A DNA stretch of 64,000 nucleotides from Panorpa germanica (lineage: Eukaryota > Arthropoda > Insecta > Mecoptera > Panorpidae). The notes below the pieces were generated by a model. That model was given only the letters and a program-made list of their open reading frames with translations, searched no databases and was not told the origin of the DNA. The stretch spans positions 9,642,721-9,706,720 of the forward strand of contig OY783223.1 of assembly GCA_963678705.1 (NCBI GenBank). Direction: 5' to 3'. A program made the translations under genes and the position numbers. Shown piece by piece: positions 4,401-38,534 of the stretch (the stretch's first letter is position 1; each line of letters starts with the position of its first letter).

Positions 4401-5242
4401 ATATATAAATTTGAACCATTATCAAGTTTATTGGATATAATATTTTGATATTCATTCCAGTCAGCTTTTTTAAAATTTCTTCTAGTGATATAATTCCTTG
4501 TTCTACCTATGTCAACATTATTTGAATTTGTTAAATTAAAAAGTATGGGATAATGATCACTCCCCATGCTGTCACTTAATACCTTCCAGTCTATTAACAT
4601 GTGCATTATTCTAGGATTAATAAGGGTTAAATCCAAGATACTATCTCTTCTATAAGGATGGTGTACTCTTGTAGGACAATCATTGTTAGCTATATGTAGA
4701 AGTTCTTCATCAATAAATTTATTCAATTCTTGTCCTTCGTAATTTATTAAGTTGTTTATATTCCATGATGGATGAAGTGAATTAAAATCTCCCGTTAGTA
4801 TCACTGGTAATTTCATTTGTCTGTACATTTGTTTCCATTTTAAACTGTCAATTTTGTGTCCTGGAGGAACGTATATTGATGTAATACATATTTCAATATT
4901 ATTTAATTTTGTACTAATTGCAGTGAGTTCCATATTATTTACTGGTTTAGTTATATGTAATCTTTTATATCTTATACTTTTATGTATAATAATGGCTGTA
5001 CCCCCATGAGGATTTGCTCTTCCAATTTGAATTCTATCATCCCTTTCTAAATTATATCCTCTTATATTAAAATTTATATTTTCTCCCAAAAATGTTTCTG
5101 AAATCAAAGCTATATGAATATTTTGCGTTTTTAATAAATTTTGTAGATCGTCTTTTTTGTGTCTAATGCTCTGTCCGTTCCACTGTATAATATTTACTTC
5201 TTTAATTTTGTTGTGGAAGATATCAATTTCTACAAGAACTTT
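1487..5242 (-). CDS. LINE ORF2: endonuclease, reverse transcriptase, RNase H
   Basis: The open frame runs from just after a TAA (5243-5245) to the stop at 1487, 1251 codons. Numbered from the first open codon, an N-terminal IIQWNGQS motif opens an AP-endonuclease fold, followed by GDFN (about 151-154) and SDHYP (about 228-232). The reverse transcriptase follows with SYRPITL, FLDIKGAYD, GLPQGSILSP and the catalytic FADD (672-675). An RNase H domain starts at TDAS (about 971-974), with GEKLALLKAL, ITDS and the PGHCGIRGNEIAD stretch supplying the acidic and His residues. The C-terminus has a CQC-x7-H-x4-C cluster. The protein nicks target DNA and copies the element RNA there. No ATG occurs before the endonuclease core, so translation probably starts by reinitiation or at a non-AUG codon after ORF1. 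ORF2 is in the same frame as ORF1, but several stops lie between them. Confidence 0.93.
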   Translation of the reverse strand, partial: KVLVEIDIFHNKIKEVNIIQWNGQSIRHKKDDLQNLLKTQNIHIALISETFLGENINFNIRGYNLERDDRIQIGRANPHGGTAIIIHKSIRYKRLHITKPVNNMELTAISTKLNNIEICITSIYVPPGHKIDSLKWKQMYRQMKLPVILTGDFNSLHPSWNINNLINYEGQELNKFIDEELLHIANNDCPTRVHHPYRRDSILDLTLINPRIMHMLIDWKVLSDSMGSDHYPILFNLTNSNNVDIGRTRNYITRRNFKKADWNEYQNIISNKLDNGSNLYISYEHLINTMNESAEESIPCTKIYNKNPKHEKPLWWDSNCNKMVAKRRLALTKFNRNSNMENYLNFKKEQANTQKYFRIRRKEEYKKFCENIKPKTPAKLIWGVVHKLSRPNINQNTRSMNNDWIEEFARNYCGNYNIISRPYIQNFKVVEFLDKSIELEELNYSLNHNKKTSTGIDRISYEMIQNLPKSAKIALINNFNNIFNTRIIPSDWKNHIIVPILKSGKNPEVASSYRPITLISCVAKTMENILKNRLEWYLEHNNKLPDSQFGFRKNRSVHDSLNIFNLDIQKTYSSNKYMLAVFLDIKGAYDAVTYPNLQLKLREIGITSKITNWLMSYFKLRSIYVRNEENLIGPFTCNKGLPQGSILSPLLYTIYSKDISKLKDDHTFILQFADDIVLYSIGPSIECLRKRINKKLCKLRDILDKIELEISVEKSQAVIFTRHKIISSPRIIYNNKNIIISNRAKFLGIWFDCKSTWSFEIDKIILKCNRGINVLRSLAGSKWGAHPISLLQIYQAIISSHLDYSSILISTASKSRLLKLDRIQYRSLRIALGCMTSTPTHILQAESNIAPLQFRNQLLSDKFYVKCETLSKFQIIDKIKLLTTYIQNSSYWIKKNKPILINSYMKLKDLNIQRNSKSPIYSIPFESLIKPMDIYINTKLLSKSFNNAINNENFLNIMHQFNINFTKIIYTDASIDLERNEAGFAIYEQINLRYYKYKLNNKVCSYTGEKLALLKALEINENINNNKIIIITDSLSVLKNLNSNDNKSNNNILTCKIKEMYFNIINRNNTIKFMWIPGHCGIRGNEIADKLAKESINLEIEMRVKLPSYEIFNIIKKFNFNLRNTDFINKSQLKGRDYYMLHPNLSKKRWFRNESRKIISTIIRIKSNHCKTPAHLYKINIKSDDRCQCGEEGTLDHIIFECINYSLERSKLNSGILDVIKTFPVNTKFLLSDSKLISELLKYLEMCKIEL

Positions 5243-5329
5243 TTAACAAATAAACGCTACTTAGAAATTATATTTTTATCTGATCCTCTAATATGTATGC
5301 TGCTGTATTATTTTATATTTATAATTTCG

Positions 5330-6649
5330 CTATGTTTTTCCTCTATCTATATCTTCAAATATAGAAAATTTATTTGAATCCGTCATGAATTTATTCCTGT
5401 CATCATTTTTATTTTCATTAAAATTTTGGTTTACCAATAATTCAGTGTTGTGTTGAATTTTTGGTACTTTTATGGACCTCTGAGAATTGTTTTCTGTTTG
5501 TTCTTCTTCATTATCTTTTTCATTTTTTCTGTAATTGTTCCTTGTATTATAAGTTCTAGGTGTAGAATTTGTAATATAATTAATGAATCTTTGTTCTTTC
5601 TCATTCTGTTTATTTTCAATTTTATTATCATTTATATTATTTTGTTTTTTCATATTTTTCGTTTTACAGTTTCTATCTAAATATGTTCTTTTCCTAATGG
5701 GTGCTGGCTTATATGATGGTATACTATTTTCACAACTTGTTAAATTTTGAGGAAAGTCCTTGTCATAATTAGATAATATATCAAATCTATTTTTTGTAGT
5801 TACCGCATACGAATTTTTGTCTTTCCAAATTTGAGGTATTTCAATAGCGGCTTCTTGATAACTAAGATTTCTGTTTCCCATTAAAATTTTTATTTCTTGT
5901 TGCCTTTTTCTTTCTTTGCAATTTTTATCAGTCGCATCATGTTCTTCATCACAATTTACACATTTTATAATTTCATTTTTACATAAATTTAGCGTATGTT
6001 CATTTGAACCACATTTGCTACATCTACTTTTTCCTTTGCATTGATTGGCCGTATGGTTATATCTTAAACATTTATAACATTGTTTCGTATTTTTAATAAA
6101 TGGTTCACAGGGTAATTTAGCATTCCAAATATAAATATATTGGGGTAAATTTTGCCCTTCAAAGAAAATGATTATATTTCTAGAGTCCTCATACTTAATT
6201 TCATCTTCAAATTTCATTCTTCTTTTTAATCTCCTTATGGAGTGAATTTTATAAGGGTAACTATATATATTTTCTTTTAATTCTTTCTCCGAAAATTCAA
6301 TATCTACATTTTTTACAATTCCAATTCTTGTAGTCCAGAACATTGGTATAAACATATCAACTCCTGATGTTATCTTATTATTCAATTTCACTAACATATT
6401 AGCTGATTTTGCATTTTTGCATTCAGCCATTATTCTATTTTTCCCTATTTTTTTTATTTCTGAAATATCCTTTCCAAATTCTGAATGATATAACATTTTT
6501 GCAGTTTTTAGTGTACTGATCCCAAATTTTTCGTTTGTTATATCTTCTTTTTGAATCATAATTTTATAAGAAGATAATGATAAATTATCTTCATTATATA
6601 AATTTATATTGGGGTCAACTCCCACTTTCCCCTCAGAGTTCAAATTCAT
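5330..6649 (-). CDS. LINE ORF1: zinc-knuckle nucleic-acid-binding protein
   Basis: This 439-aa protein starts at ATG (6649) and ends in TAG (5330-5332). Three CCHC-type zinc knuckles lie in tandem, at residues about 191-204, 210-223 and 230-244; the third has slightly altered spacing. The segment before them (about 90-180) looks like the RNA-binding region found upstream of knuckles in I- and Jockey-type ORF1 proteins. The C-terminal third is Asn/Lys/Glu-rich and probably disordered. The expected role is to coat element RNA, act as a chaperone and form the RNP with the ORF2 protein. ORF2 opens 87 bases after the stop. No frameshift or internal stop is seen. Confidence 0.88.
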   Translation of the reverse strand: MNLNSEGKVGVDPNINLYNEDNLSLSSYKIMIQKEDITNEKFGISTLKTAKMLYHSEFGKDISEIKKIGKNRIMAECKNAKSANMLVKLNNKITSGVDMFIPMFWTTRIGIVKNVDIEFSEKELKENIYSYPYKIHSIRRLKRRMKFEDEIKYEDSRNIIIFFEGQNLPQYIYIWNAKLPCEPFIKNTKQCYKCLRYNHTANQCKGKSRCSKCGSNEHTLNLCKNEIIKCVNCDEEHDATDKNCKERKRQQEIKILMGNRNLSYQEAAIEIPQIWKDKNSYAVTTKNRFDILSNYDKDFPQNLTSCENSIPSYKPAPIRKRTYLDRNCKTKNMKKQNNINDNKIENKQNEKEQRFINYITNSTPRTYNTRNNYRKNEKDNEEEQTENNSQRSIKVPKIQHNTELLVNQNFNENKNDDRNKFMTDSNKFSIFEDIDRGKT

Positions 6650-6852
6650 TTTAAAAATTCAGAAAAAATTTGAATATTAAAATGATAATAATTTAAATAA
6701 TACAATTTTACTTTTACTTTAAATTTACTTTTTAAATAATTTTTATATATATATATATATATATATGTATTTAAAAATATTAATTCAATTAAATTATTTT
6801 TAGGAAACAGACAAAACACGTCTATCACGTATCGAATGACTACTCGATTGAC
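6650..6852 (-). promoter_or_regulatory. LINE 5' UTR, presumed internal promoter, with TA microsatellite
   Basis: These 203 bases lie between the 5' target duplication and the ORF1 ATG. Elements of this kind usually carry an internal Pol II promoter at their first bases; here that is inference, with no motif identified. A TA-repeat run lies at about 6743-6765. Confidence 0.5.
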
Positions 6853-21907: not shown

Positions 21908-24842
21908 ATGCCAAGTAGATGCTGCGTTCCACTTTGTAAGGGCAACTATCCTACGGGTCCAAAAGTATCTGTATTTGGCTTCCCTAAAGACGAATGCTTA
22001 AAAAAGAAATGGTGTTCTGCTATTCAGCGAAAGGCGTTTGTTCCGTCGAATAAATCCAAAGTAAGTAGATAATGAGAACGTATGCGTGAAAGATTAATTA
22101 GACAAACATACCGACCATCACAAGACTATTATATTAAACTATTTACAGGTCTGCGAACTCCATTTCAAAAGTGACGATATTGAAACAGAATCGAAAGCGT
22201 ATGACAACAAAACTGGTGTTCTAGTTTCAGCAACTCTTAAAGTCAAAAGACTAAAGAAAGGAACTATTCCTTCTGTATTTTCAAATTACCCCAAAAGTGT
22301 TGCATATTGCTCCTCAAGCAACACCTCGCCGGGCCCTTCAACAAATAGAGTATCTCCCGATTCAAAAGCCGAAGAAAGAGAAAATAGATTATTGAATTCA
22401 GCGATCATAAACAGTATAAATTCAGCAAATGCCTATAATACCGATCGTAGAATTAATAATATAAACAACCTTCTGGATTGTATTAGAAAATACGGTGTTT
22501 CTGAGAGATGGTCACATCAGTATTTGCCAGATAAAGAGCTTATTTGCATTTTTTATTTAACTGTTGAACCTGAACCCTTAATTCAATATTCTATTACAAT
22601 AGATAAACATTTGGCATTATCGGTCTTTATAAAGAGTACATTAATTAAGAAAATAGGCCCAAAATTATTACCACAGAAAATAACTAGCTACAATGAGATT
22701 ACTGATATTTTAGAAACCATTGTTTTAATCAAGGCAGACAGTAAGACATGCAAAAGAAGTGCTACATTTCATTTAATCGATGAATTGTTAAAGGACGTTG
22801 TAACCAACAAGAATGAAAATATTTTACATTTCTTAAGGGGGCAAATAGAATTGTGCATATGTCCTACAAATAATTTTAGATATTCCCCTGAGTTATTAGT
22901 ATTTGCTTCTTTATTAAATACAATTTCACCACATGCCTACAAGTTCTTAAGACAAAGTGGATATTTTATATTTCCGCATCCTAACACATTGAAGAAAGTA
23001 TGCAATGATTTACATGTAAATCCGCAGTTAGAAACTAATGATAAAAATTTTTTGATGTACGCTAGTAATAGAGTAAGCTATCTTCAAGATTTTGAAAAAA
23101 CAGTTATACTAATGATTGATGAGATACACATTAAACCATTTTTTGACTATAAGGGTGGATCTATTGTTGGTGCATCGTTTGATTCAAATACTGCGGCTAC
23201 AAGTGCCTTTGTTTTTATGGTTTCCAGTTTATTATCACAATTTAAAGATGTTGTTCATATTGTACCAATTAAAACAATAAATTATGTAACTTTATACAAT
23301 TTGATAAAAAAGCTTATATTAGGGTTAGAAAAGGCGGGATTCAAAGTCATTTGTGTTGTTACAGATAACAATGCAATAAATAGAAAAGCTATGAGTTGTT
23401 TCGCTGTTCCTAATAAAACATCTTTTCTTTATCAGCATCCCCAGGATGCTAATAGGCCACTCTTCTATTTAATTGATTCGGTTCATCTTCTTAAAAACAT
23501 TAGAAATAACTGGTTAAATCAAAAAAATATTGGACAGTGTATGTTTTTTCCAGATTTTGAAAAAGGTGATAATTGTAGAACTGCATCATTTTCTGCTCTT
23601 AAAAAGTTATATGAAATAGAAAATACTGCAATCATTTCTTATGCACACGGGTTAACATTTAAGAGCATTGCACCTTCAAATCTTGAGCGCCAAAATGTGA
23701 AATTAGTGTTGAAAATTTTCAACCAATTTGTAGTTCAAGGTTTGAATGAAAAAGGACGTCTGCATAATATTGAGTATTATAATGATACGTCAATTTTTAT
23801 TTCAATCATTTGCAAATGGTGGGATGTTATGAACGTTAAAACTGTATACAAAGGTTTACACAAAAGTAACATTTACATGACACCTTTAACAAAGGACAAA
23901 TCAGATCAGAAATTTATATTTTTAAACAAATTTATTGACTGGCTCGACGCGTGGCAACAAATGAATTTTTCCAGTGGTTGCTTTACTAATCAAACGCACG
24001 ATGCGTTAAGACAAACTACATACGGAATGTTAGAATTGTGTCGTTATTGCATAGACGAACTAAAATTTACTTATATATTACCAGGTAAAATTCAAACAGA
24101 TTTACTTGAAGATAGATTTGGCAAATATAGGCAATTAGCTGGGTCTCAATATCACATCTCCATGAGACAAGTTCTAGAGTGTGAAAAAAAATTACGTCTT
24201 CAATCAAATTTAAAACTAGAACTAATAATTAAAGATAGAGCAATGACAGTGCAAACATTACAATGTCCAGAAAATATTCTAGATAATATTGAAGATACTA
24301 ATGAAGCAATGACACCATTGCAATCGGTAGTAATTAGCGAAATGGATATAGCCAATGTAGAAGAATTATTACCTGTAATTACATATTTAGCGGGGTATTG
24401 TTGTCATGCTGTTTTAAAAAAAATTAAGTGTAGCAAGTGTAAAGAAATCTTAACAATTGATAAGACAATTTCTTTACACCAGTCATACAATTTAATAAAA
24501 AATCTTGATCGTGGAGGCCTGATTTGTCCGACACCTTCTGTAGTCAATTTAGTTATGTACAATTATTTAATAGTTGAAAAGTTGTCTCGTGATATAGATT
24601 TTTTCTCTCTCCAAAATCAGAGAAAATATATAATAGATGTTACATGCAAAACTTTAGAAGTTAAAGAAATGCTGTTAGAAGACCTTCTTGATCTCGAGTG
24701 TCATAACAACTATTATATATGCAAGTTATTAATTCATGTTTCAACTAATATTATGGTAAATAATTTATCATCTCGTAAAAATGACGACTTGCAACATAAT
24801 AAACAGTATAAGAAAAGAAAATTGCAAACTCTAACTACATAA
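21908..24842 (+). CDS. P-element-like THAP transposase (two exons)
   Basis: Exon 1 is 21908-22060 and exon 2 is 22149-24842. The 88-base intron has GTAAGT and TTTACAG boundaries and phase 0, giving a 948-aa product. The start is the ATG in ACAAAATG that yields MPSRCC, the usual THAP beginning. The THAP zinc ligands C5, C10, C53 and H56 are present, the last two (VCELHF) only after splicing. An RNase-H-like catalytic core follows, with MIDEIHIK (D375), VVTDNN (D457) and TDLLEDRFG (D702/E705), matching the D, D and D-x2-E pattern of P transposase. HLLKNIRNNW lies in the region that holds the GTP-binding insertion. The C-terminal LAGYCCHAVLKK-CSKC cluster (about 798-815) is also typical. The enzyme cuts and pastes the element after THAP-mediated end binding. 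No disabling lesion was seen. A domesticated THAP9-like gene is the alternative, but the flanking inverted repeats favour a live transposon. Confidence 0.92.
22061..22148 (+). other. Transposase intron
   Basis: The donor is AAA|GTAAGT at 22061 and the acceptor TTTACAG ends at 22148. Removing it joins the two halves of the THAP zinc-binding domain in frame, and the intron contains in-frame stops. Confidence 0.85.
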
Positions 24843-25376: not shown

Positions 25377-27279
25377 CATTCAGTTGAATCATCGTCTGCT
25401 GGACGTTGTGACTCCTCGGTGTCCCAGCTACCTCCACAGTCTGGCTGGCATCCCACAACATTGTATTGTAAATCAGAAGGTTTTGTTGTCCAAGACTCAC
25501 TGCACTGTACTGCACTTAATGCAATCTGACCAGGGTATGGGTATGAAATAATGCAAATGCAATTTGTGAGACATATTTAGTTTAGTTTAGAATACACAAA
25601 TCAATTGAAGCGGGATTCTCAAAACATCGAAATTAACAAGCGTTTTAAATTAGATATGCATGTGACGTCACTGTATCGTCTTGTCACACATTGTGGATTA
25701 CCTTAAGAATATAATAAATGAATCTTGTCCTTTTTTTTTTAGTAAATACGAGTATTAGAGAATACACCTTTATATTTAATATGGAAATGTGTTTTTATAA
25801 ACTTTTGATTGTATTACTAAAAACTGGAGATAATAAAAAGTCGTTCAGTGGGCAGATCAGGTGGGAGGAGGAGACTATTGGCGATTGTGAAAGGAGAGAG
25901 AGAGACGAGTAATATTATTTGTTTTTATTAATGACAGTCATGAATGAATATATTACTATGGTAAATATATATATACTCGTATATAGTGATGTCATCACTA
26001 TTGTTTTATTTAATTAAAAATTATTTAATGAGGTCGTTTATAATAATCACTCGTTATATAATATGTGTGGCATGCTTATTATATGCTTCATTTAAATAAT
26101 GATAGGCCATAACCCCAGTAGGTGTTAAACACATTATTAATAGCTGGGGCTCATATATCTGAATCATCATTTTTATATTTAATTTACATAAATTATACAA
26201 ATGGTGACATTATTTGTACATAAATTATAGATATTTAGAACTTAGTATCTTTTTTATAAATTATCTACTATTATAATGTTCTAGGTGGCTCGAAAACGGC
26301 TTAATATGTTGATATCTCGAAAACCAAGACACGTCTATATAAAAATAAATTACAGATTTGTAATCAGCATTAAAAACTAAGATTTTTTTTTATGAAATTA
26401 TCAAGGCTATAACCTTTAAAATTTTCAAAAACGGTTCTTTTCTTTTACTCTTTATTTGTACATATTTTCTTAGGCATCTACATTTAATGGAGATGTAGTT
26501 TATGCAAGTTCATATGCTTCTTTCATATAGGCGCTGCTCCTTACTATCCAACAGTGTTGCACGCTCAAATAACTGTGAAATTAATCGCATGTTTTAATCA
26601 ATTAATTAAATTTAATGCTTGCACACATTTTCACAATCATCTGTTTTTCCAACACGCATTCCCTTTGCGATGCGGCACATTGTGGCGCACCCACAAACAG
26701 TTGGTGACACATTAGGTCAAAGACTCTGCCCTGACCTGAATCATAGTGTAGCGTTTTTTCACTAATTAACTCAAATTGCATTCAATCTATCTCTATACGT
26801 ATAGCTCTTTGAGTCACATCTATACAACTCAATACACTACAGCACAACTAGCCTAGTTTGATTCACCAGTTAAAGAGAGGTCAATGGGTTAACCTTATGA
26901 CCTTATAAAACTATGCGTTATTTATTTTATTCGAAAATTACTTTTACTTAATTCTCGTAGAATGACTAATACTGTGAGGTCACGGGGTCGAAGTATTTAA
27001 TACAGTTTGTTAAACATTAAGTTTATAAGAAAAATTAAGTAATTTTTATTATTGTTTTAATTGAAATATTTATGAAGGGTTCTGTCTAAAAACCCATGCG
27101 GGCTTTTATTGTAATGTGTAATATTACGCCAGTGTGGACGTGCCAATAGGTTTTTAAAATTTAATTCAATAAATCAAATATGTATATACTTTGAAATCAC
27201 ATTGACGTTCGTATTTGCAATGGGGTAGTAAAACTACCCCTACGATTACGTCAGTCTGTATCCCCGTGCTTTAAGATAT
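25377..27279. other. Non-coding stretch between transposon and Gypsy LTR
   Basis: No gene-like frame with recognisable motifs. A further TGACGTCAC lies near 25661. A perfect 8-bp hairpin with a 3-base loop (GGGGTAGT-AAA-ACTACCCC) is at 27222-27240. Confidence 0.4.
27276..27279. repeat. Target-site duplication, left (ATAT)
   Basis: ATAT immediately before the TGTAAC start of the 5' LTR; matches 38531-38534. Confidence 0.75.
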
Positions 27280-28261
27280 TGTAACAGTCCCATATAGATT
27301 CATTAATTATTGATAATATATTTTAACTAACTATTTAGGAACCATTGGATGGTTCAAATACAAAGTAGTTTTAATAGTTTTAGGCGTCTAAATGTCGCGA
27401 ACTTTGTTTAAATTAAGTATAGCTTTATCGATAGAACCATGTTCGTATATTAGTATAATATTCAAAATTGCTGACATAATATTTACAATAACATTTAAGA
27501 GAAATATTAATTAACTTCGTTTGTTGAAGGCACGTGTAGCTTTTGGGCGTGAAGCACGTGGAGTTTTAATTAATGTTTATGTTGGAACCAAATATGAAAA
27601 GTCCAAAGAACTAATGACGGAATGTCATCTGACTTTAGTAGTGATGACGAAATAACATTTGAGTTCAAACGAGTTCATATATTCAAACAAAGAGCTTTAA
27701 TCTATATAAGCTTAGTTTAAGAGAGTAGAGGGGGTCAGTCCATCAAGATCAATCAGCCAGTTAGTACGTCGAGACGTCAATCGAAAGGTCTGTCTAATCA
27801 GCCCCGTCTAATAAGGGAGTAGCGCCCCTTAGTCGGTGGTTCGGGTATTAGTCAGTCGCTTTGACATAAAGATTATTAAAATTACTAAGATTTGTATTAA
27901 TTAAGTTTTTGAATAATAAAGAAAATAGTGTTAATGAATCCCTTGTTTTAATTGTAAAAGTACTTAGAATTAACGGTCGTGTCGCGTTAAATAAAGTGAT
28001 TGTCCAAAGCAGAGGAAGCTGCCTGCAGAGAAAGTACAAAAAGTAAGTAAAACCTAATATATTTATGAAATATAATTAGATGAGGTAATAAGTCCTGAAT
28101 AATAAAGAAGCCTCCACAATTAGCATTAGCTTGGTCATCCGACTCAAGGGGAACCAGATCCTCATAAACGAACTTTCGCATGAGACGATTGTAGTATCGC
28201 TCTCATAAAATAAGTAACTACCACCATATATAGATAGTAGATATTTGGGGGTAGGGTTACA
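27280..28261 (+). repeat. 5' LTR (982 bp)
   Basis: The LTR begins TGTAAC and ends GTTACA, a 6-bp terminal inverted repeat with the canonical TG...CA. TATATAAG at 27703-27710 is followed about 30 bases later by an arthropod-type initiator TCAGTC (27735-27740), the likely start of R. AATAAA hexamers lie at 27915-27920, 27990-27995 and 28101-28106. It is direct-repeated at 37549-38530. Confidence 0.96.
27703..27740 (+). promoter_or_regulatory. LTR core promoter: TATA box and initiator
   Basis: TATATAAG (27703-27710) and TCAGTC (27735-27740) have normal TATA-to-initiator spacing. They would place transcription start at about A27737 and make U3 about 457 bp. The same pair recurs in the 3' LTR at 37972-38009. 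Confidence 0.6.
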
Positions 28262-28264
28262 TTT

Positions 28265-28280
28265 TGGTGTCAGGTGTGGG
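28265..28280 (+). other. Primer-binding site, tRNA-Leu
   Basis: TGGTGTCAGGTGTGGG starts three bases inside the LTR. It is complementary, apart from about one base, to the usual 3' end of metazoan tRNA-Leu (…CTGACACCA). Minus-strand DNA synthesis would start here. The tRNA assignment rests on remembered tRNA ends and was not searched. Confidence 0.75.
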
Positions 28281-29462
28281 GTAGTTTAAAAAGGGGTGTA
28301 TTGAAAAGAGGTGTATTAAAAGAGAAATATGTTAAAAGAGAGGTATTGAAATTGTGGGGTGAATTAAAAGAAAAAGGGTATAGAAATTGTAAGGTATTTT
28401 AAAAGAGAGATACGTTAAAAAAAAGGTATTAAAATTGTGGGATATTAAAAAAGGTAGAAATTTGATTAATTGGAAAAAGGCATTAAGTGGAAAATTTAAT
28501 TTGAGAAAATAAAGAGGTAAATCTTAGTAACTGGGAAAAAGAAATAAGAATAAGTTTTATTAATTGTGAAAAAAGGAATAAATTGTAGTAACTGGGAAAA
28601 AAAAAGGATTAATTGGGTAAAAGTAATATAGTTTATTAATTGCAACTAGCAACTGCATATTAATAATTAGAAAAAGAAAAGATATCAGCATAATTCAAGA
28701 AAAGGGAATATTTAAATAATCAAAGAGTGGGGTATTTTAAGTTTTTGTAAAAGGGAATAAATTTAAGGAACTAAACAGTAGATAATTTTTCTAAACCATA
28801 ATTTGTTAAAGTTGAATATTTTTGTTTTAACCGTAACTAAATAAGGGATATTTTTTAAATAGTTTTTGTAATTCACAAGTAAAGTGGCACGTTTTTATAA
28901 AGTATAAAGTTTTGAGTCATTGTAACAGGAATTGAAAAAATAAGTAGTTTTTGTTTTGTCGTAATTTTATTAAGTGATTGGAACAATTAAAAAATTTGTA
29001 ACACAACTTATTTGAAATTATTTTGAATTTATTTTTAGATTATATGAGAAAATATTGAGTATTACATAAAATAGTTTATTTGATTTTATTTCACTAATAA
29101 TTAAAAATTATTTTATCAATTTACAATTCGGTAATATACTTTTGTCATAAATACTGTTTGTCATAATTTTTATTTGAGTTTTTATTGTTCTAACTCAGTC
29201 TATATTAAATATACTAGCATTTTGTTTGACCTACTTAAAAATAATTTGTTTGTTTATTTTTATGTATATATAAACAACTAGACGTTCCATTTCGTTTCAA
29301 AAAGTAAATCACAAGAGTACAGTTTTGTTAAAATAACTAAGGCCGTGTAAGATATTGTTTACTTTTAAAAAAAAAAAAAATAGATTTTAAAATATTTGTA
29401 GTAGTTTATTGAAGCTTACTAAAGGTTTTTATTTGATTTAAAGTTTATTCCAAATAGTTAAA
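28281..29462 (+). other. Gypsy 5' leader with degenerate tandem repeats
   Basis: About 1.2 kb without a long frame. From about 28285 to 28455, units of the form GGTATTRAAATTGTGGGGT / TTAAAAGAGA recur with variation. From about 28460 to 28630 a TTAGTAACTGGGAAAAA-type unit recurs. The sequence is purine-rich on the plus strand. Packaging or internal translation initiation are possible roles, with no direct evidence. Confidence 0.6.
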
Positions 29463-30575
29463 ATGACAACTAATGAACCAAACGTAGATATTGCCCCAGA
29501 AATTCCTAAATTAAAAGGATTGAATTATATACCATTCTTTGACGGTACAGGTAGCATAGCAACATTTTTAAATGCGGTGGATCAAATGGCAGAATTGTTG
29601 GATTGGACCGATAAGGTACAATCAGTTACCGTATTTGCGAAAGTGTCGCCTGATGTAGCTGAATATCTTTTGTCTAATTCGGAGGTTCAAAGTGAGAACC
29701 GTAGTTATATGAGTATTCGTAATGCATTATTGTCTAGATATAGCAGAAAAGGGCCATCTGCTCTGAGACAAGCTGAAATTGAGTTCGGGGGTTGTAAACA
29801 AAGACATGGCGAGACTGTTTATGAATTTTCACAAAGGTTATGGGCATTAGGGTCAAAATGTGTACCAGAAGCAATTGATAAAGAGCAAGAAAAGAAGCTT
29901 ACGATTGAGTTGCAAGTAGCCGTTTTAAAAAGATTTAAAGAAGGGATATCGCCGAGATATTCTAAGTTTATTTGGGCCGCGGATCCCAAGAGTTTTAATA
30001 GTGCCGTTGAAATTGCGGAAAGAGTAGAAACCGATGATTTAGTCTCATCGAAGCAAGGCTACGTAGCAGAGATTGCTACAGGTGGTACAAACCGAATAAA
30101 TAGAACCGACCACTATTATGTAAATCGCGCATCTCAAAATAATCAATCGTCTATGCGACCTAGCAACTCGCGTAGCGGTTCACAAGGCCGTAGGTTTAAT
30201 AATAGGCAAAGAGATGGAGTAAGATGTTACAATTGTAACAGAGTAGGACATTTTCAGAGAGATTGTCGTAGTCGTCCTCAAAGGGAAGTAAGAGATCGAT
30301 TTCAAAGAAATCGCAGTTTAAATAGGTATGAAAACCGTAGTCAAAGTAATGACCGATTAGGGAGAGTTAGAGTCCTCCAAGAATATAATGATAGCCGTAG
30401 TCCTGCGAGAAATCAGAGACAAGTGACTTTCCAAAGTAACAGAAATATTCGCAGCATCGAAAATAAGCCAAGCGAAGTAGAAGAAAGAAATTTACGCGCG
30501 TCCAATAATTATGAGGGTAATTTAAACGGATTGATGGCTTCACTCACTACCCGAGACGTAGAAGCCATTCAATAA
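29463..30575 (+). CDS. gag: Gypsy Gag polyprotein
   Basis: 370 aa. The N-terminal part (about 1-195) has the helical character of Ty3/Gypsy capsid, with FFDGTGSIATFLNAVDQ early on and ISPRYSKFIWAADPKSFNSA later. A basic, Arg/Asn/Ser-rich nucleocapsid follows, with one CCHC knuckle, C255-x2-C258-x4-H263-x4-C268. The start ATG (AAATGAC) is the first in the frame before the conserved region. Gag assembles the particle and packages element RNA. Its last ~16 codons overlap the pol frame, and TTTAAAC at 30521-30527 lies in the correct register for -1 slippage. The frame ends at TAA 30573-30575. Confidence 0.93.
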   Translation: MTTNEPNVDIAPEIPKLKGLNYIPFFDGTGSIATFLNAVDQMAELLDWTDKVQSVTVFAKVSPDVAEYLLSNSEVQSENRSYMSIRNALLSRYSRKGPSALRQAEIEFGGCKQRHGETVYEFSQRLWALGSKCVPEAIDKEQEKKLTIELQVAVLKRFKEGISPRYSKFIWAADPKSFNSAVEIAERVETDDLVSSKQGYVAEIATGGTNRINRTDHYYVNRASQNNQSSMRPSNSRSGSQGRRFNNRQRDGVRCYNCNRVGHFQRDCRSRPQREVRDRFQRNRSLNRYENRSQSNDRLGRVRVLQEYNDSRSPARNQRQVTFQSNRNIRSIENKPSEVEERNLRASNNYEGNLNGLMASLTTRDVEAIQ

Positions 30576-30587
30576 GTAAAAAGGGTA
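30521..30587 (+). promoter_or_regulatory. -1 ribosomal frameshift signal (gag-pol)
   Basis: The slippery heptamer T TTA AAC (30521-30527) is in gag register. Six bases later an 8-bp perfect stem forms between ATGGCTTC (30534-30541) and GAAGCCAT (30561-30568). Loop bases TACCC (30548-30552) can pair with GGGTA (30583-30587), giving an H-type pseudoknot. The pol frame is closed by a TAA at 30518-30520, immediately before the heptamer, and gag stops at 30575, so slippage must fall within this interval. Confidence 0.85.
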
Positions 30588-33500
30588 ATCTTACACCTCT
30601 GTATGTACCGGCATTTCATGATAATCAATGGTTTCTTAATTTAGTAATTAATGGTCAAAATTGTAACGTTCTTATAGATAGTGGTGCAGGCGCCAGCCTA
30701 CTAACTAGAGAATGTTTAAAAACAGAAAAAATTACAGAATCGCAAAATATCTTGCGAGATGCACAAAATAATAAAATACATACACTTGGTAAAAGCAGAT
30801 TAAAGTTAGATTTATTTGGGGATAATGTGACTTTTGATTTTGAAATTGTAGAAAATATGGAAAATTGGACAGGTATAATTGGGTTAGACTTTCTTCGTAA
30901 ATTTGGGATAATTGTAGATTTTGGAAAGGGTATTTTAATATATAGAAACGTTATTTACGACATTAATCGTAATACTGTACATGATTTTCAGAGAGATAAT
31001 TTGAATATTAATAATATGATTAGAGAAAATGTAAAAGGTATCATTAGAAAGCAAAAGCGTATTATATCAAAGTCAGGGAAAATCGTAGAAAAAAATAGAA
31101 AAGATAGAAATATAGGTTGTAATGAATCGGAAAATATTGACGTAAAAAGAGAAGTAAATAATCAGCGAATTGACAAGATAGGGCACGAATATAAAAGTTT
31201 TGATGATTTTCTAAAATGGAAAATTAGTAGATTTCCAACGATAGAGACGTTGTGCAAAATAAATTATAATAAGGGAGATTTGTTTAATGCATCTAGCAAG
31301 TATGCATTGGGTCATTGTGTAGCCTCAGATTTACGTATGTCACAAGGAATAGCAGTTGAATTTAAAGAAAGATTTGGCAGAGTTGAGCAGCTTTTGAGAC
31401 AGAAACAGAAAAAGGGTGGATTAGCTATATTAAAAGATGAAAATCGTTTTATATATTATTTAGTGACAAAAAAGAGGAGTAACGAGAAACCTCTCTACGC
31501 AGATTTATATTCGTCAATAATTAAATTACGGGATCATATGTTAGAAAATAAAGTGAAATTTATTGCATTACCATACATAGCATGTGGGCTAGATAAATTA
31601 GATTTTACAATAGTGAGTAAAATGATTGAATATATATTTTCTGAAAGTAAAATAAAGATAGCATTCTATGATGGCGAATCGGAAAAAAATGAAAAAAGGT
31701 ATATGAACTGTGTAATAAGTAAAAATGATAATGATTTAAAAGATAACATTGACGGAAAGAATGTTAAATCCCAAGAACAGGTAAAGAAATGGAAGAACTT
31801 ACAAACAAAGTGGTTAAAAAGAATACACACAGCTGAGCGAGCTGAAAAAATAAACACAACTATGAATGAGAAATCTGAAACCACTCGAAAGCGAACAGAC
31901 GCACACATGTGTAGTAGTAATCGGTATAGTGTTAGGTTACTAGGTCAAGAAACGTTACCGCCCCGATGTACAATAAATGTTCATGCATTTCAAAAAGACA
32001 TTAAGGAAGGTCATGGGATTTTTAACCCAGAATTGAGCATAGATGGAGTATTAGTAGCAAGGAGTGTAAATTCAATATGTAAGGGTAGGTTAATATGTAG
32101 AATAACCAATGTTACGCAAAAGAATATTAATATACCAATAAATACTAAGATAGGTATAATAGAGCCATATGATGACGAATATACTGAAACAGTTGAATTA
32201 TTAAGAGAACACGTCCGGCAACGTAATAAAAATATTTTAATTGGTGCTGTACGATCAGCAGAAACAAACACAGGGTTTGAAAATATACAATTATTTGATG
32301 AAATAGGTTATAATAATTTAACAGCTAAAGAAGATAAAATTATACATGAAGTTACCAATCAGTGGAAGCAAAAAAGTCATAAGAATGATGATATAAATAA
32401 AACACAGAGAATAACGGAACTTTTTAGCAAAATAAAGTTAAATCATTTAAGTGCTAGAGACCAAAGTAAAATGGAAAATTTAATTTACGAATATCGCGAC
32501 ATATTTTTAACAGAAGGTCAAGAATTGAAAACTACCTCGATAGTTAAACATAAGATAATAATTCAAGATGTTCCTCCTATAACTAAACAACCATATAGAG
32601 TTCCGCATGCACAGTTACAGGTACTGAGAGAACAGATAGATCAAATGCTTGAAGATGGCATAGTAGAACCATCAATGTCACCGTGGTCCAGTAATGTTGT
32701 TCTTGTAAATAAGAAAGCAGCAAATGGGGAAAACAAGGTTAGAGTTTGCATAGATTACAGGGGTCTTAACGCGATAACAAAAAGAGATTACTTTCCATTA
32801 CCACACTTAGTAGACACTCTTGATAAATTAGGCAAAGCAAGTTTATTTACCAAATTAGATTTAGCATCGGGATTTTGGCAAATTGAAATGGACGAAAAAT
32901 CTAAAGAATTAACAGCATTTTCAACACCAGATTTACACCTTCAATTTAATGTTATGCCGTTTGGGTTAGTATCAGCTCCTGCTACATTTCAGAGACTTAT
33001 GTATGCAGTGTTAGCAGGTTTAACCGGAGTACATTGTTTAGTTTACCTAGATGATATTATAATATTTAGTAACGATGATGTAGATTCACATATTCAGAGA
33101 ATTAAAGAGGTTTTCGATCGCTTGAGAGAAGCAAGTTTGACATTGAAGCCTAGCAAATGTGAATTTATGAATAAAGAAACGCAATATTTTGGTCATATTA
33201 TTTCTAGTGATGGTGTAAAGGCAGATCCAGAAAAAACGGAAGTAATTAGAAACTATCCGCGTCCGAAAACAGTTAAACAAATCCGATCTTTTATAGGGTT
33301 AGCTTCATTTTATAGACGATTTATAAAGAATTTTTCAGAATTATCATCAAGCCTAACAAAACTAACTTGTAAAAATGAGTCATTTATTTGGGGACCTGAA
33401 CAAGAGAAAAGTTTTGAAGCATTAAAGAACGCGTTATGTTCTGAGCCAGTCTTAGCTTACCCAGATTTTAGTCAAGAATTTATATTAGGGACAGATGCAT

Positions 33501-35434
33501 CAGGAATCGCATTAGGCGCAATCCTAAGCCAAGTTCAGGATGGAGTAGAACGTCCTGTCGCATACGCTTCTCGTAAATTAAATAAATGTGAGAAAAATTA
33601 CTCAACCACAGAAAGGGAATGTTTAGCGATTTTATGGAGTTTATCACACTTTCGTACATATTTATATGGTAAGAAATTTAAGATTCAAACAGATCACAGA
33701 TCATTACGTTGGTTAATGACTATGAAAGATCCAATGAAAAGTAGATTAGCACGGTGGGCTTTAACTTTAGCAGATTACGATTTTGAAATTATTTATAGGC
33801 CAGGAGTAAAACACGGTAATGTCGATGCATTAAGTAGAATAGAAACAGAAAGTATTGCAGCCGTAGCAGCTGAAGAAGTTCCATATTGGGATTGGTGTCA
33901 AATTAAAAATGAACAAGCTAGTGATTCCCATATTAAACAATTAATAACGCAAACTAAGTATGGGGAGAAAAATGATTATTATTTAGATGATAGGGGTATA
34001 CTGTATAAGAAAAGTAATGAAAAAACAGATAGAAATGACTGTGTAGTAGCACCAACACGAATGGTACCGAATATATTGTATATGTTTCACAATACGCCTT
34101 CAGCAGGGCATAGGGCATTTGAAGGGACACTACAGATAATAAAGAAACATTTTGTATGGCCAGCAATGAGACAAGACATAAAAAGATATTGTGAAGAATG
34201 TTTAAGCTGTCAAATGAGAAAAACTTCACCTCATTTAAAACGAGCACCGTTACAGAAATTTAAACCGCTTACTTATCCATTTGAAAGAATTTCACTAGAT
34301 ATTGTAGGACCATTAGTACTCAGTAATTCAGGAATGAAGTACATTTTAACAGTTCAATGTGCATTCTCAAAATACTTGCAAGCGTTTGCAATACCTGATC
34401 AGTCTGCAGAAACGGTAGCAAAGGTATTTTGTGAACAAGTTATAGCACGTTATGGTACTCCTAAAGCTTTATTGACAGATAGAGGAACTAACTTTTTGTC
34501 CGAATTATTTAGAAACGTTTGTAAAAGACTAGACATTACGCAACTTTCAACATCAGCGTATTCTCCTTCGACAAACGGAAGTTTAGAACGTTGTCATCGT
34601 ATATTAAAAGACTATTTGTCACATTTCGTGGATTCTGATCAAAGGAATTGGGATTCCTGCTTAAACTACGCTGTCATGGCATACAATGCAGCTATACATA
34701 GTTCGACACAAGAAACACCATTTTTTCTAATGCATGGTCGTGATATGGTATTACCATATGGTGAGGTATTAAAACCTGAAAGAGTTAGATACGACCTCGA
34801 TGATAATTATGCCGCCGAATTAATTTTAAGATTAAAGAACGCTTTTAAGTTATGTACAGAAAGGTTAGAAACAGCAAAAGATAGACAAGCTAAACAATAT
34901 AATAAAAAGTCGGAACCGGTCAAATTTAAAATAGGTGATCATGTGCTATTGAAACATATGACGCACACACCAGGATTAAGTAGAAAGCTTGGAAAAGTAT
35001 GGCGAGGTCCTTATAGAATTATTGATAGAACCAGCGAAGTAAACTTTTTAATAAAGGAAATTTATGGAAAACGGGAAGAACGAGTGCATGTTAATCGCCT
35101 CAAGAAATTTAAAGGTAACACAGCTGAAGTATTTTCAGGAAATAATGAAGTTCATTCAGAAAGTGAATCTGAAGATGAAGAAAATGATACGAATCTAAAT
35201 ACAGGTTTCGGTAATTTATTGAATTTTGGTTATACTAGTGATACGAATAATGATATATCAGATGAGATAGAAGAAATAATCGAGATAGACACGAATATTG
35301 ATAATAATGACAATATAGAGAATATTGATATTGAGATAGAAAATCCAGTTGAAGATACAATTGGGCATAGTTACTCTTTGCGCAGCCGATGCGTTGCACC
35401 AAAACAACCGTGGATATCGAATAGTAGAATATAA
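30521..35434 (+). CDS. pol: Gypsy Pol: protease, macro domain, RT, RNase H, integrase
   Basis: The frame is open from 30521 to TAA at 35434, -1 relative to gag. The first ATG (30752) is not the start, because the protease active site DSGAGAS (Asp at 30677) lies upstream; expression is by frameshift. Numbered from that ATG: a protease tail with GIIGLDFL (about 41-48), a basic linker, a macro domain (about 170-310), a Gypsy-type connector (about 390-480), and the RT with LDLASGFWQ, MPFGLVSAPATFQ and YLDD (765-768). RNase H follows (TDAS D915, E956, D981, D1025). Integrase has H1113/H1120/C1150/C1153, D1183, D1243 and E1279 with the D-x35-E spacing, and a WRGPYR (GPY) motif near 1417. An acidic Asp/Glu/Asn tail ends in YSLRSR. 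No stop or frameshift breaks pol. Confidence 0.95.
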   Translation, partial: FKRIDGFTHYPRRRSHSISKKGNLTPLYVPAFHDNQWFLNLVINGQNCNVLIDSGAGASLLTRECLKTEKITESQNILRDAQNNKIHTLGKSRLKLDLFGDNVTFDFEIVENMENWTGIIGLDFLRKFGIIVDFGKGILIYRNVIYDINRNTVHDFQRDNLNINNMIRENVKGIIRKQKRIISKSGKIVEKNRKDRNIGCNESENIDVKREVNNQRIDKIGHEYKSFDDFLKWKISRFPTIETLCKINYNKGDLFNASSKYALGHCVASDLRMSQGIAVEFKERFGRVEQLLRQKQKKGGLAILKDENRFIYYLVTKKRSNEKPLYADLYSSIIKLRDHMLENKVKFIALPYIACGLDKLDFTIVSKMIEYIFSESKIKIAFYDGESEKNEKRYMNCVISKNDNDLKDNIDGKNVKSQEQVKKWKNLQTKWLKRIHTAERAEKINTTMNEKSETTRKRTDAHMCSSNRYSVRLLGQETLPPRCTINVHAFQKDIKEGHGIFNPELSIDGVLVARSVNSICKGRLICRITNVTQKNINIPINTKIGIIEPYDDEYTETVELLREHVRQRNKNILIGAVRSAETNTGFENIQLFDEIGYNNLTAKEDKIIHEVTNQWKQKSHKNDDINKTQRITELFSKIKLNHLSARDQSKMENLIYEYRDIFLTEGQELKTTSIVKHKIIIQDVPPITKQPYRVPHAQLQVLREQIDQMLEDGIVEPSMSPWSSNVVLVNKKAANGENKVRVCIDYRGLNAITKRDYFPLPHLVDTLDKLGKASLFTKLDLASGFWQIEMDEKSKELTAFSTPDLHLQFNVMPFGLVSAPATFQRLMYAVLAGLTGVHCLVYLDDIIIFSNDDVDSHIQRIKEVFDRLREASLTLKPSKCEFMNKETQYFGHIISSDGVKADPEKTEVIRNYPRPKTVKQIRSFIGLASFYRRFIKNFSELSSSLTKLTCKNESFIWGPEQEKSFEALKNALCSEPVLAYPDFSQEFILGTDASGIALGAILSQVQDGVERPVAYASRKLNKCEKNYSTTERECLAILWSLSHFRTYLYGKKFKIQTDHRSLRWLMTMKDPMKSRLARWALTLADYDFEIIYRPGVKHGNVDALSRIETESIAAVAAEEVPYWDWCQIKNEQASDSHIKQLITQTKYGEKNDYYLDDRGILYKKSNEKTDRNDCVVAPTRMVPNILYMFHNTPSAGHRAFEGTLQIIKKHFVWPAMRQDIKRYCEECLSCQMRKTSPHLKRAPLQKFKPLTYPFERISLDIVGPLVLSNSGMKYILTVQCAFSKYLQAFAIPDQSAETVAKVFCEQVIARYGTPKALLTDRGTNFLSELFRNVCKRLDITQLSTSAYSPSTNGSLERCHRILKDYLSHFVDSDQRNWDSCLNYAVMAYNAAIHSSTQETPFFLMHGRDMVLPYGEVLKPERVRYDLDDNYAAELILRLKNAFKLCTERLETAKDRQAKQYNKKSEPVKFKIGDHVLLKHMTHTPGLSRKLGKVWRGPYRIIDRTSEVNFLIKEIYGKREERVHVNRLKKFKGNTAEVFSGNNEVHSESESEDEENDTNLNTGFGNLLNFGYTSDTNNDISDEIEEIIEIDTNIDNNDNIENIDIEIENPVEDTIGHSYSLRSRCVAPKQPWISNSRI
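31259..31681 (+). other. TARG1/OARD1-type macro domain within Pol
   Basis: Residues about 170-310 (counted from the ATG at 30752) read NKGDLFNA, then HCVASDLRMSQGIAVEFKERFG, then GGLAILKDENRFIYYLVTKKR, then ALPYIACGLDKLDF. This order and wording is that of the ALC1-like macro subfamily represented by human TARG1/OARD1 (C6orf130), which removes ADP-ribose from Asp/Glu and hydrolyses O-acetyl-ADP-ribose. The equivalents of TARG1 Lys84 (K240, in VTKKR) and Asp125 (D281, in CGLD) are both present, so activity is plausible. The domain sits between protease and RT, where the basic linker suggests a separable module. Family assignment comes from motif recognition, not a search. Confidence 0.88.
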
Positions 35435-37533
35435 CTAATTATAACTATCAGAGTTTCAATAGGATATAAATTAGTTAAGGTCAATTTGAAAAAGGGATTA
35501 TTTTATCGTTAAAGTTGTTAATAGGGACTAATATAGTACTTTAATATTTTACGAGTAAAAGAAACATAAAAACAGAAAGGTCATGAGTTACAAAAATAAA
35601 CATATAATTAGGCACTAAAGTTATTTGTAACAGATGTATTGAAATTCGAGTCAGAAAGGTCATAGAAGAAATTAACACTTGAGAATATAAGTGAACATAA
35701 ATAAGACTTCTAACAGGGGGTTGGAGAACATAAATTAGATAAGGGTACAATAATATACAAATTAGACCAGAAGTTACAGATGTACGAAACATGAGTAACA
35801 ATAACGTTTAATAATTATTTTTATGTTTTTATTGAGATATACTAATGCTATATAATTTCAGATGGACAACCATATGATGAATACAGCAAGCAGAATAAGA
35901 TGACTTAATTGAAGATTTTATATAAGAATAAATTAAAATGTTTTTCTGTTCACAGATCGTTTTGGAAATTTTAATAGAGAAAGAAGAAGATTTTAAAATT
36001 GATAAGAGGTATTCATTGAAAATTTGAACACTTGTATTGTTAAATTGCATTGAGATATAATATAATATAGAGAAAAGAAATTTTATTTTGTGAAGCACAT
36101 GTAAAACTACATGCGAATATAAAGAAGTTGATTTAAATTCAAGTAACAAGTGTTGAAGTTTAATAATTATGTTTACCTTGACTATAGTATTTGAGTAAAG
36201 TATCTATAAAATTAAGATTTTGTTGTTTAAAAATAATAAATAGATTTAAAAATAATTTTTGATATAACCATGTTTAGAATAATGTTTTGATTTGAAAAAA
36301 AATAAATATAATAAATTTGTTAAATGAAAAATACAGTAAATGAGAATAAGTTCATTAAAACATTCGTTAATAAAAGAATAAACTAAAGTATGAAATATTG
36401 ATTCTAAATTTAAGAGAAAAGTTAAATTTGTATTTTAATTAAAGAAAAAAATATGTTTACATTAAATTTCATTATTATGTAGAATTAACAGTAGTTTGTA
36501 AGAGGTATGAAAATAATTTATGGCATAAATATTGCAAAGTTGGAAAATATATATACAACAATCAAAGGAAAAAAAGTAATAAGATTAAATTCAAAAGAGA
36601 TTGATGTTGCCGTAAGATATTTACATGTTGTGTTTAAAATATAAGTAAAATAACTAGAAATTAAGACATGCTATGAAATAAATTCATATTTTGTAATGAC
36701 TATAACTTCTAAGTAAAGTAAATCGAATTATTAGTAAAAGAGCTATACAAGAGCCAAATTTGTTATGTCAATTATAAGAAATTATAGAAAAAAAAGACAG
36801 AAAATGAATTTATAATTAAGATAATTACGTAAGGGTATACATTGCAGCATTTACCACAACGGAGAACTGAAGGATGAGACTAGTAGTTGATTTTCATAAT
36901 GCGTAAGACTAAGGTAATAAGTGTGAATACTTGAACGAGTCAATGATCGAATGTACGAGAGAAACTACCAGAATGCAAGTCGTTATGAGATGAAGATTCC
37001 GATGAAATCGATGCATATTGAAAGATGAAGAAAACAATACGAAATGACGAAGTCCGTGAATAATCCAGAAGAAATTAAGGGTCTAAGTGAAGCAGTAATC
37101 ACTTAAGAAGAAAACATATATCATATGTGTATTAATCTACAAGTATTGTAAACAGAACGAGAATTTACAAATGTAATGGACCATTAAAAACTATCAGTAT
37201 TGTTTATATGAGCTACGGAAATATGAAGCCAGATGCAAAGCAGTAGGACAAGGCCGCATTCGAAAACAAACCGAGGCAGAGCGTATTCGAAACGAAGAAA
37301 AGTATTCACTTATTTATCAAAGTTGGTTGCATGTTGTAATGAAACTATGAGAACAAAATCACCTACATAAAGCAGATAAAGAAGAATTATTTTGATTATC
37401 AACGACTATATATTATTGATTTATTGATTTAAATTTTAAATTGCATTTATTTTTAAGGTTTCAATTATGAATGAATCTAGAAATACGGGAAAGACTAATA
37501 AAATTATAATCATTGGATTATAGATTTTAATTT
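35435..37533 (+). other. Gypsy 3' non-coding region (env position)
   Basis: About 2.1 kb between pol and the polypurine tract, AT- and purine-rich on the plus strand. There is no plus-strand frame of note; the only open frames are short and antisense (for example 35829-36149) without motifs. An env gene would lie here in an errantivirus-like element; none is visible, nor any recognisable remnant of one. Confidence 0.6.
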
Positions 37534-37548
37534 AAAAACGGGAAGCAA
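37534..37548 (+). other. Polypurine tract
   Basis: AAAAACGGGAAGCAA directly abuts the TG of the 3' LTR and is almost entirely purine. It is the expected primer for plus-strand DNA synthesis. Confidence 0.75.
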
Positions 37549-38530
37549 TGTAACAGTCCCATATAGATTCATTAATTATTGATAATATATTTTAACTAAC
37601 TATTTAGGAACCATTGGATGGTTCAAATACAAAGTAGTTTTAATAGTTTTAGGCGTCTAAATGTCGCGAACTTTGTTTAAATTAAGTATAGCTTTATCGA
37701 TAGAACCATGTTCGTATATTAGTATAATATTCAAAATTGCTGACATAATATTTACAATAACATTTAAGAGAAATATTAATTAACTTCGTTTGTTGAAGGC
37801 ACGTGTAGCTTTTGGGCGTGAAGCACGTGGAGTTTTAATTAATGTTTATGTTGGAACCAAATATGAAAAGTCCAAAGAACTAATGACGGAATGTCATCTG
37901 ACTTTAGTAGTGATGACGAAATAACATTTGAGTTCAAACGAGTTCATATATTCAAACAAAGAGCTTTAATCTATATAAGCTTAGTTTAAGAGAGTAGAGG
38001 GGGTCAGTCCATCAAGATCAATCAGCCAGTTAGTACGTCGAGACGTCAATCGAAAGGTCTGTCTAATCAGCCCCGTCTAATAAGGGAGTAGCGCCCCTTA
38101 GTCGGTGGTTCGGGTATTAGTCAGTCGCTTTGACATAAAGATTATTAAAATTACTAAGATTTGTATTAATTAAGTTTTTGAATAATAAAGAAAATAGTGT
38201 TAATGAATCCCTTGTTTTAATTGTAAAAGTACTTAGAATTAACGGTCGTGTCGCGTTAAATAAAGTGATTGTCCAAAGCAGAGGAAGCTGCCTGCAGAGA
38301 AAGTACAAAAAGTAAGTAAAACCTAATATATTTATGAAATATAATTAGATGAGGTAATAAGTCCTGAATAATAAAGAAGCCTCCACAATTAGCATTAGCT
38401 TGGTCATCCGACTCAAGGGGAACCAGATCCTCATAAACGAACTTTCGCATGAGACGATTGTAGTATCGCTCTCATAAAATAAGTAACTACCACCATATAT
38501 AGATAGTAGATATTTGGGGGTAGGGTTACA
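37549..38530 (+). repeat. 3' LTR (982 bp)
   Basis: Direct repeat of 27280-28261 at a constant offset of 10,269, with no difference noticed. Its AATAAA hexamers (for example 38184-38189) would end the element transcript. Confidence 0.96.
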
Positions 38531-38534
38531 ATAT
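38531..38534. repeat. Target-site duplication, right (ATAT)
   Basis: ATAT immediately after the GTTACA end of the 3' LTR; matches 27276-27279. Confidence 0.75.

Follow-up and report, generated by a model that had tools for sequence, protein, structure and literature searches.

Macro domains serve RNA viruses as counter-defence enzymes, and the macro-domain enzyme TARG1 removes ADP-ribose from Glu and Asp and, like DarG, from nucleic acid. In lentiviruses and some retroelements dUTPase is an accessory enzyme of Pol, and it can lie between RNase H and integrase, as in the non-primate lentiviruses. Some fish retroviral sequences carry additional open reading frames (ORFs) for macro-domain proteins, according to a review (PMC4977317) which cites Basta et al. 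2009. The stretch analyzed here, a window of 64,000 nucleotides from Panorpa germanica (contig OY783223.1, positions 9,642,721 to 9,706,720; coordinates below are those of the window), holds a complete-looking long terminal repeat (LTR) element at 27280-38530. Its Pol contains a TARG1-type macro domain (MAC) between protease and reverse transcriptase (RT). Based on the conserved catalytic Lys/Asp and the predicted TARG1 fold, this MAC is probably an ADP-ribosyl hydrolase which would be packaged with Gag-Pol and strip host-added ADP-ribose from the nucleic acid or proteins of the element.

The stretch of the Pol frame at 31202-31720 matched human TARG1 (4j5r, 4j5q, 2l8r, 2eee and 2lgr) with E about 1e-38. 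Query residues 19-156 correspond to window 31256-31669, close to the 31259..31681 which an earlier note on this DNA had claimed, and identity to human TARG1 was 47% over 138 aligned columns. With Pol residues counted from the TTG at 30752, MAC residue 90 is K240 and aligned to K84 of human TARG1, and residue 131 is D281 and aligned to D125; the earlier note had numbered both correctly. K84 and D125 are the catalytic pair of the human enzyme. Their equivalents were invariant in all 13 rows of the MAC alignment (A1). The MAC was predicted with confidence to adopt a macro fold, so the failure of structure prediction to give one, which the earlier note had named as evidence against its proposal, did not occur. 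Homology and a predicted fold nearest to TARG1, together with the Lys84 and Asp125 equivalents, mark the domain as TARG1/OARD1-type. The general Macro model of Pfam gave it 18.6 bits against a curated cut-off of 22 bits, and it is therefore missed by Pfam at the curated threshold.

The features of the element are as follows.

27276..27279, unstranded: left target-site duplication, ATAT
27280..28261, plus strand: 5' LTR, 982 bp, with ends TGTAAC...GTTACA (LTR comparison)
28265..28281, plus strand: candidate primer binding site TGGTGTCAGGTGTGGGG, 3 bases past the 5' LTR, read by eye
29463..30575, plus strand: Gag, 370 aa, with a single CCHC zinc knuckle (Pfam zf-CCHC, E 2e-6)
30521..30527, plus strand: heptamer TTTAAAC where the Pol open frame starts, in a register that fits a -1 frameshift from gag
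30521..35434, plus strand: Pol open frame, 1637 stop-free codons
30641..30898, plus strand: aspartic protease, DSGAG (Pfam gag-asp_proteas, E 1e-6)
31256..31669, plus strand: TARG1-type MAC with K240 and D281 (sequence match and fold prediction)
31880..32401, plus strand: region between MAC and RT, present also in family C (below)
32711..33202, plus strand: RT (Pfam RVT_1, E 8e-37)
33464..33778, plus strand: RNase H (Pfam RT_RNaseH, E 6e-42)
34052..34228, plus strand: integrase zinc-binding domain (Pfam)
34277..34567, plus strand: integrase core (Pfam rve, E 4e-12)
35006..35107, plus strand: integrase C-terminal p58 domain (Pfam)
37549..38530, plus strand: 3' LTR (LTR comparison)
38531..38534, unstranded: right target-site duplication, ATAT

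The MAC shares one unbroken frame (30521-35434) with protease, RT, RNase H and integrase. The Pfam domain order is the usual protease-RT-RNase H-integrase with the MAC added between the first two, and this order and the TARG1 match bear out the earlier description of a Ty3/Gypsy-type Pol with a TARG1-type MAC at that site. The two LTRs are identical (0 mismatches in 982 bp). Based on the TG...CA LTRs with a short target duplication, the Pol order, and a zinc-knuckle Gag with a separate Pol frame, this is a Ty3/Gypsy (Metaviridae-type) element. The env frame of errantivirus-type (env-bearing) Gypsy elements was not seen after Pol, the longest stop-free plus-strand run in the interval from Pol to the 3' LTR being 57 codons. 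Gag-Pol would be made by -1 frameshifting at TTTAAAC, the basis for this being the frame offset and the heptamer; no stimulating structure was found 3' of it, a 161-nt RNA fold being no better than shuffles (z -0.34).

The MAC is present in many copies and is not a chance insertion in one of them, an outcome which the earlier note had kept in view. The species' own assembly (464 Mb) was searched with the window MAC (best 150 of 597 candidates scored, with at least 150 matches) and again with the MAC of family D (best 150 of 557 candidates scored), the second search yielding families E and F. Family A, to which the window element belongs, comprises at least 57 rows at 87% identity or more in the window-MAC search, some partial and the window's own counted in, and at least 8 of these lie in frames of 1636-1638 codons. 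Family B comprises at least 18 rows of about 45% identity in 1389-codon frames; two of the 18 were fetched and the others were assigned by identity and frame length. In all, 24 stretches picked from the search listings were fetched and the Pol pieces mapped onto each, with the integrase core mapped on seven loci. Protease-MAC order was found in L045, a broken copy of family A, and in the five stretches of family C, where RT, RNase H and integrase follow. The order RT-RNase H-MAC-integrase was found in 12 of 13 family B stretches (L050 had no integrase match) and likewise in families D (L040), E (L054, L056) and F (L055); the MAC of L056 is cut short, and RT and RNase H were unmatched in L057 (family F). 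The analogy with dUTPase drawn in the earlier note suits families B, D, E and F, with their MAC at the RNase H-integrase site, and is less fitting for the window element.

Loss of the Lys/Asp pair, a further outcome foreseen as damaging, was not found in family A, where 29 of 31 loci keep both residues, the exceptions being one KE and one broken copy with Q. The pair was kept in 13/13 own-genome loci of family B, in 3/3 of family D (two being one place) and in the single family E locus that reaches the Asp. The ratio of non-synonymous to synonymous substitution (dN/dS) across copies, a check suggested in the same note, was for family B (13 rows) 0.265 in the MAC, 0.285 in RT, 0.246 in RNase H, 0.363 in the integrase zinc domain, and 0.397 and 0.497 in linkers; these stretches were hand-picked from the MAC-query listing with broken copies included. 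For family A (30 rows) it was 0.395 in the MAC, 0.533 in protease and 0.694 in part of RT, from loci at the top of a MAC-query search, which favours well-kept MACs. The MAC of family B is thus shown to be under purifying selection, with constraint equal to that of RT. The better evidence is that of family B, with its nearly equal values and its broken copies included.

Two clusters were also observed. At G000:C98:616407-631541 four family A MAC copies lie on one strand, 4.8 to 5.1 kb apart, resembling a tandem array from part of an element, and at G000:C5:16555185-16568380 three family B copies are spaced by exactly 6361 bp, as if tandem elements share LTRs. Family C retains its MAC in Pol without the catalytic Lys/Asp, possibly with a change of role. 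In family F (L055, L057) the pocket motif GCGLD reads EFDLD, with K and D still in place.

A protein database search with the family B MAC in its Pol context gave 13 protein matches among 397 candidates. Five of them (P0023-P0027, P0023 being marked partial) contain protease, RT, RNase H and integrase, P0021 is a ground-beetle (Carabus) integrase-containing protein, and P0015-P0020 are six beetle proteins for which no Pfam domain is listed. P0023 is filed under powdery mildew on a 6.5-kb contig, and its true host is uncertain. In P0026 the MAC occupies the protease-RT interval and in P0025 the RNase H-integrase interval; P0021, P0023, P0024 and P0027 carry it C-terminal to integrase. The Lys/Asp pair is kept in all six. 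The search with the window MAC in its Pol context gave no Pol among its 2 matches of 327 candidates, neither having element domains.

Based on Pfam coordinates, protease and RT are 604 residues apart in the window element and 506 in P0026, as against 234-247 in P0023, P0024, P0025 and P0027. The RNase H-integrase spacing is 390 residues in P0025, 90-127 in the other four database Pols and 91 here. Both spacings are long only where the MAC sits. The contrast in the tail past integrase is weaker (214-219 residues in P0023, P0024 and P0027, 108 here, and 183 in P0026, which has no tail MAC). As judged from sequence, the MAC is modular, occurring at three positions of Pol in several Gypsy lineages; of the capture by a single element proposed in the earlier note, the MAC in the window Pol stands, and the phenomenon is wider. 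Among the five database Pols with a MAC, P0023 alone reached the Pfam Macro cut-off (22.3 bits), and since the window MAC is missed as well, the domain may be commoner than annotation shows. One relative (L051) came from a scan of viral contigs. TARG1-like proteins with 32-39% identity were also seen in Lactobacillus, Bacillus, Lysinibacillus and Fusobacterium phages (at least 10 records, H1-H10; 12 matched).

If the MAC is a packaged hydrolase, the -1 frameshift at TTTAAAC would bring it into the particle as part of Gag-Pol, at the stoichiometry of RT and alongside RT and integrase. It could then act near these enzymes, on cDNA or RNA ends, on Gag/Pol, or on host proteins at the integration site, and the selective reason would be PARP-type ADP-ribosylation by the host restricting the element. 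What the three positions have in common is being in Pol, not adjoining one given enzyme, and this points to a substrate that is present in the particle, in the pre-integration complex or where integration takes place. That host ADP-ribosylation is the opponent is plausible, on indirect grounds. A study of Drosophila without PARP-1 (PMC7712786) reports significant changes in eight mobile elements, of which five rise and three fall; three of these eight belong to the Gypsy superfamily. Ten further elements, nine of them Gypsy superfamily, rise but do not pass the false-discovery limit, and the authors state that the effect may be indirect. A catalytic change in a coronavirus macro domain attenuates that virus (PMC10499221).

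Several points weigh against such a hydrolase. Its activity is a prediction, from sequence and model. In family C, the RT sister of family A with the MAC at the same position, R and C replace K and D in all five loci (L038, L039, L041, L042, L046), and five substrate-loop residues are absent in 4/4 aligned rows; in family F, D replaces the G123 equivalent in 2/2 loci. Because of these losses hydrolysis would be dispensable in some lineages and not essential to all carriers, which speaks against the proposal. The open frames in other copies mean that the MAC is compatible with element activity and do not imply that it is needed. To our knowledge there is no known host PARP target in the host species.

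A broader proposal, which we put forward tentatively, is that Ty3/Gypsy elements of insects and others have repeatedly taken up TARG1-type hydrolases at three sites of Pol, to be packaged as a counter-defence. ADP-ribosylation of cDNA, RNA or particle proteins would then be an unrecognised host arm, and families C and F would be lineages that escaped or switched strategy. Instead of several host captures, a single acquisition of the MAC by an ancestral Gypsy element may have been followed by its movement within Pol and between lineages, a history that we hold possible but rather doubtful. It is favoured by the approximately unbiased (AU) test, in which a single clade of all 14 element MACs was not rejected (p 0.258), and by the grouping of D, E, F and P0025 as one clade both in the MAC tree (36 rows; 98/90), whose deep forks are weak, and in the RT tree (12 rows, MAC-bearing elements only; 97/93). 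The RT tree also joined A with C (100/98) and B with P0023, P0024 and P0027 (100/99). Against it, the free MAC tree requires 4 element/other changes. Moreover, B and P0023/24/27 differ in MAC position, and B and P0023, with RT 66% identical, share only 45% in the MAC, which in B is no nearer to that of P0023 than to A (48%), human (49%) or a beetle protein (51%). All 14 element rows fell in a 23-row part of the MAC tree together with beetle, flea, P0001 and P0022 domains (74/95). Our reading of these trees is one old gain, apparently co-inherited by D, E, F and P0025 as a clade, with the MAC placed more than once across all lineages. The flea P0003 query singled out no single-copy host TARG1 donor in its 132 matches scored from 567 candidates, the rows being partly checked and the top rows being loci already found with the window MAC; absence of the donor gene is not established by this six-frame search, because it ignores introns and scores best candidates only.

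The MAC might be a reader and not an eraser, binding ADP-ribose or poly(ADP-ribose) and holding the pre-integration complex on ADP-ribosylated chromatin or at strand breaks, much as chromodomains guide chromovirus integrases. We consider this unlikely. A MAC placed next to integrase, on its RNase H side (B, D, E, F and P0025) or C-terminal to it (P0021, P0023, P0024 and P0027), would suit a tether, as would the macro-like domain that family C retains without K/D; however, the MAC of the window element adjoins protease, far from integrase, families A, B, D and E retain the K/D pair though it is unneeded for binding alone, and C and F have altered residues of the likely ADP-ribose pocket too. 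That the MAC is merely structural, as a spacer or a passenger whose captured fold persists since its deletion harms folding or processing of the polyprotein, is quite improbable. For this reading are the loss of the pair throughout family C and the 29% MAC identity of C to A (RT 57%); against it are the three positions, the kept K/D, the RT-like constraint in family B, and the 234-247 residues that suffice in all four Pols without a protease/RT MAC.

Two further mobile elements were identified in the window. At 1490-6658, on the minus strand, is a non-LTR element whose 1251-aa ORF2 frame was matched by Pfam to endonuclease, RT and RNase H, and weakly to zf-RVT; the preceding 442-aa frame has zinc-knuckle-like motifs by eye and no Pfam match. 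No claim is made for P0022 as a long interspersed nuclear element (LINE) bearing a MAC, its upstream part having no clear match to the LINE of the window. At 22098-24839 on the plus strand lies a 914-aa frame for a P-element-type transposase (Tnp_P_element, TNP-like_RNaseH_N).

If the proposed hydrolase is real, a de-ADP-ribosylase in a retrotransposon Pol would imply that hosts turn ADP-ribosylation on retroelements, either within the particle or at the integration step, and PARP restriction of retrotransposons becomes testable with one small purified domain. The literature search found no description of a macro domain inside the Pol of an LTR retrotransposon, most subscription papers being outside its reach. 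An accessory macro domain in a retroelement has precedent; a TARG1-type domain inside Gypsy Pol, at three positions, is new as far as the literature searched shows. The precedent is that of the fish endogenous retroviruses, likewise retroelements with an acquired macro domain; the review describes these as extra ORFs in vertebrate retroviruses, of a macro subfamily not stated there, whereas the MAC forms part of a Ty3/Gypsy Pol. Human TARG1 (OARD1, C6orf130; 4j5r, 4j5s) resembles the MAC in its 47% identity, the same predicted fold and the Lys/Asp pair, but is a free cellular enzyme and not a segment of a retrotransposon polyprotein. The nearest BFVD model is Kadipiro virus VP8 (A0A8E0KJF2), the TARG1-like domain of which is 47% identical to the window MAC. 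Alphavirus nsP3 and rubella p150 have the same fold in viral proteins, yet are only 8-14% identical to the MAC and stand outside retroelements. The chromodomain of chromoviruses is likewise an extra domain of Gypsy Pol, located at integrase, but it is a reader of histone marks and not an ADP-ribose fold. With dUTPase the MAC shares the role of an accessory enzyme built into Pol, while fold and reaction are unrelated.
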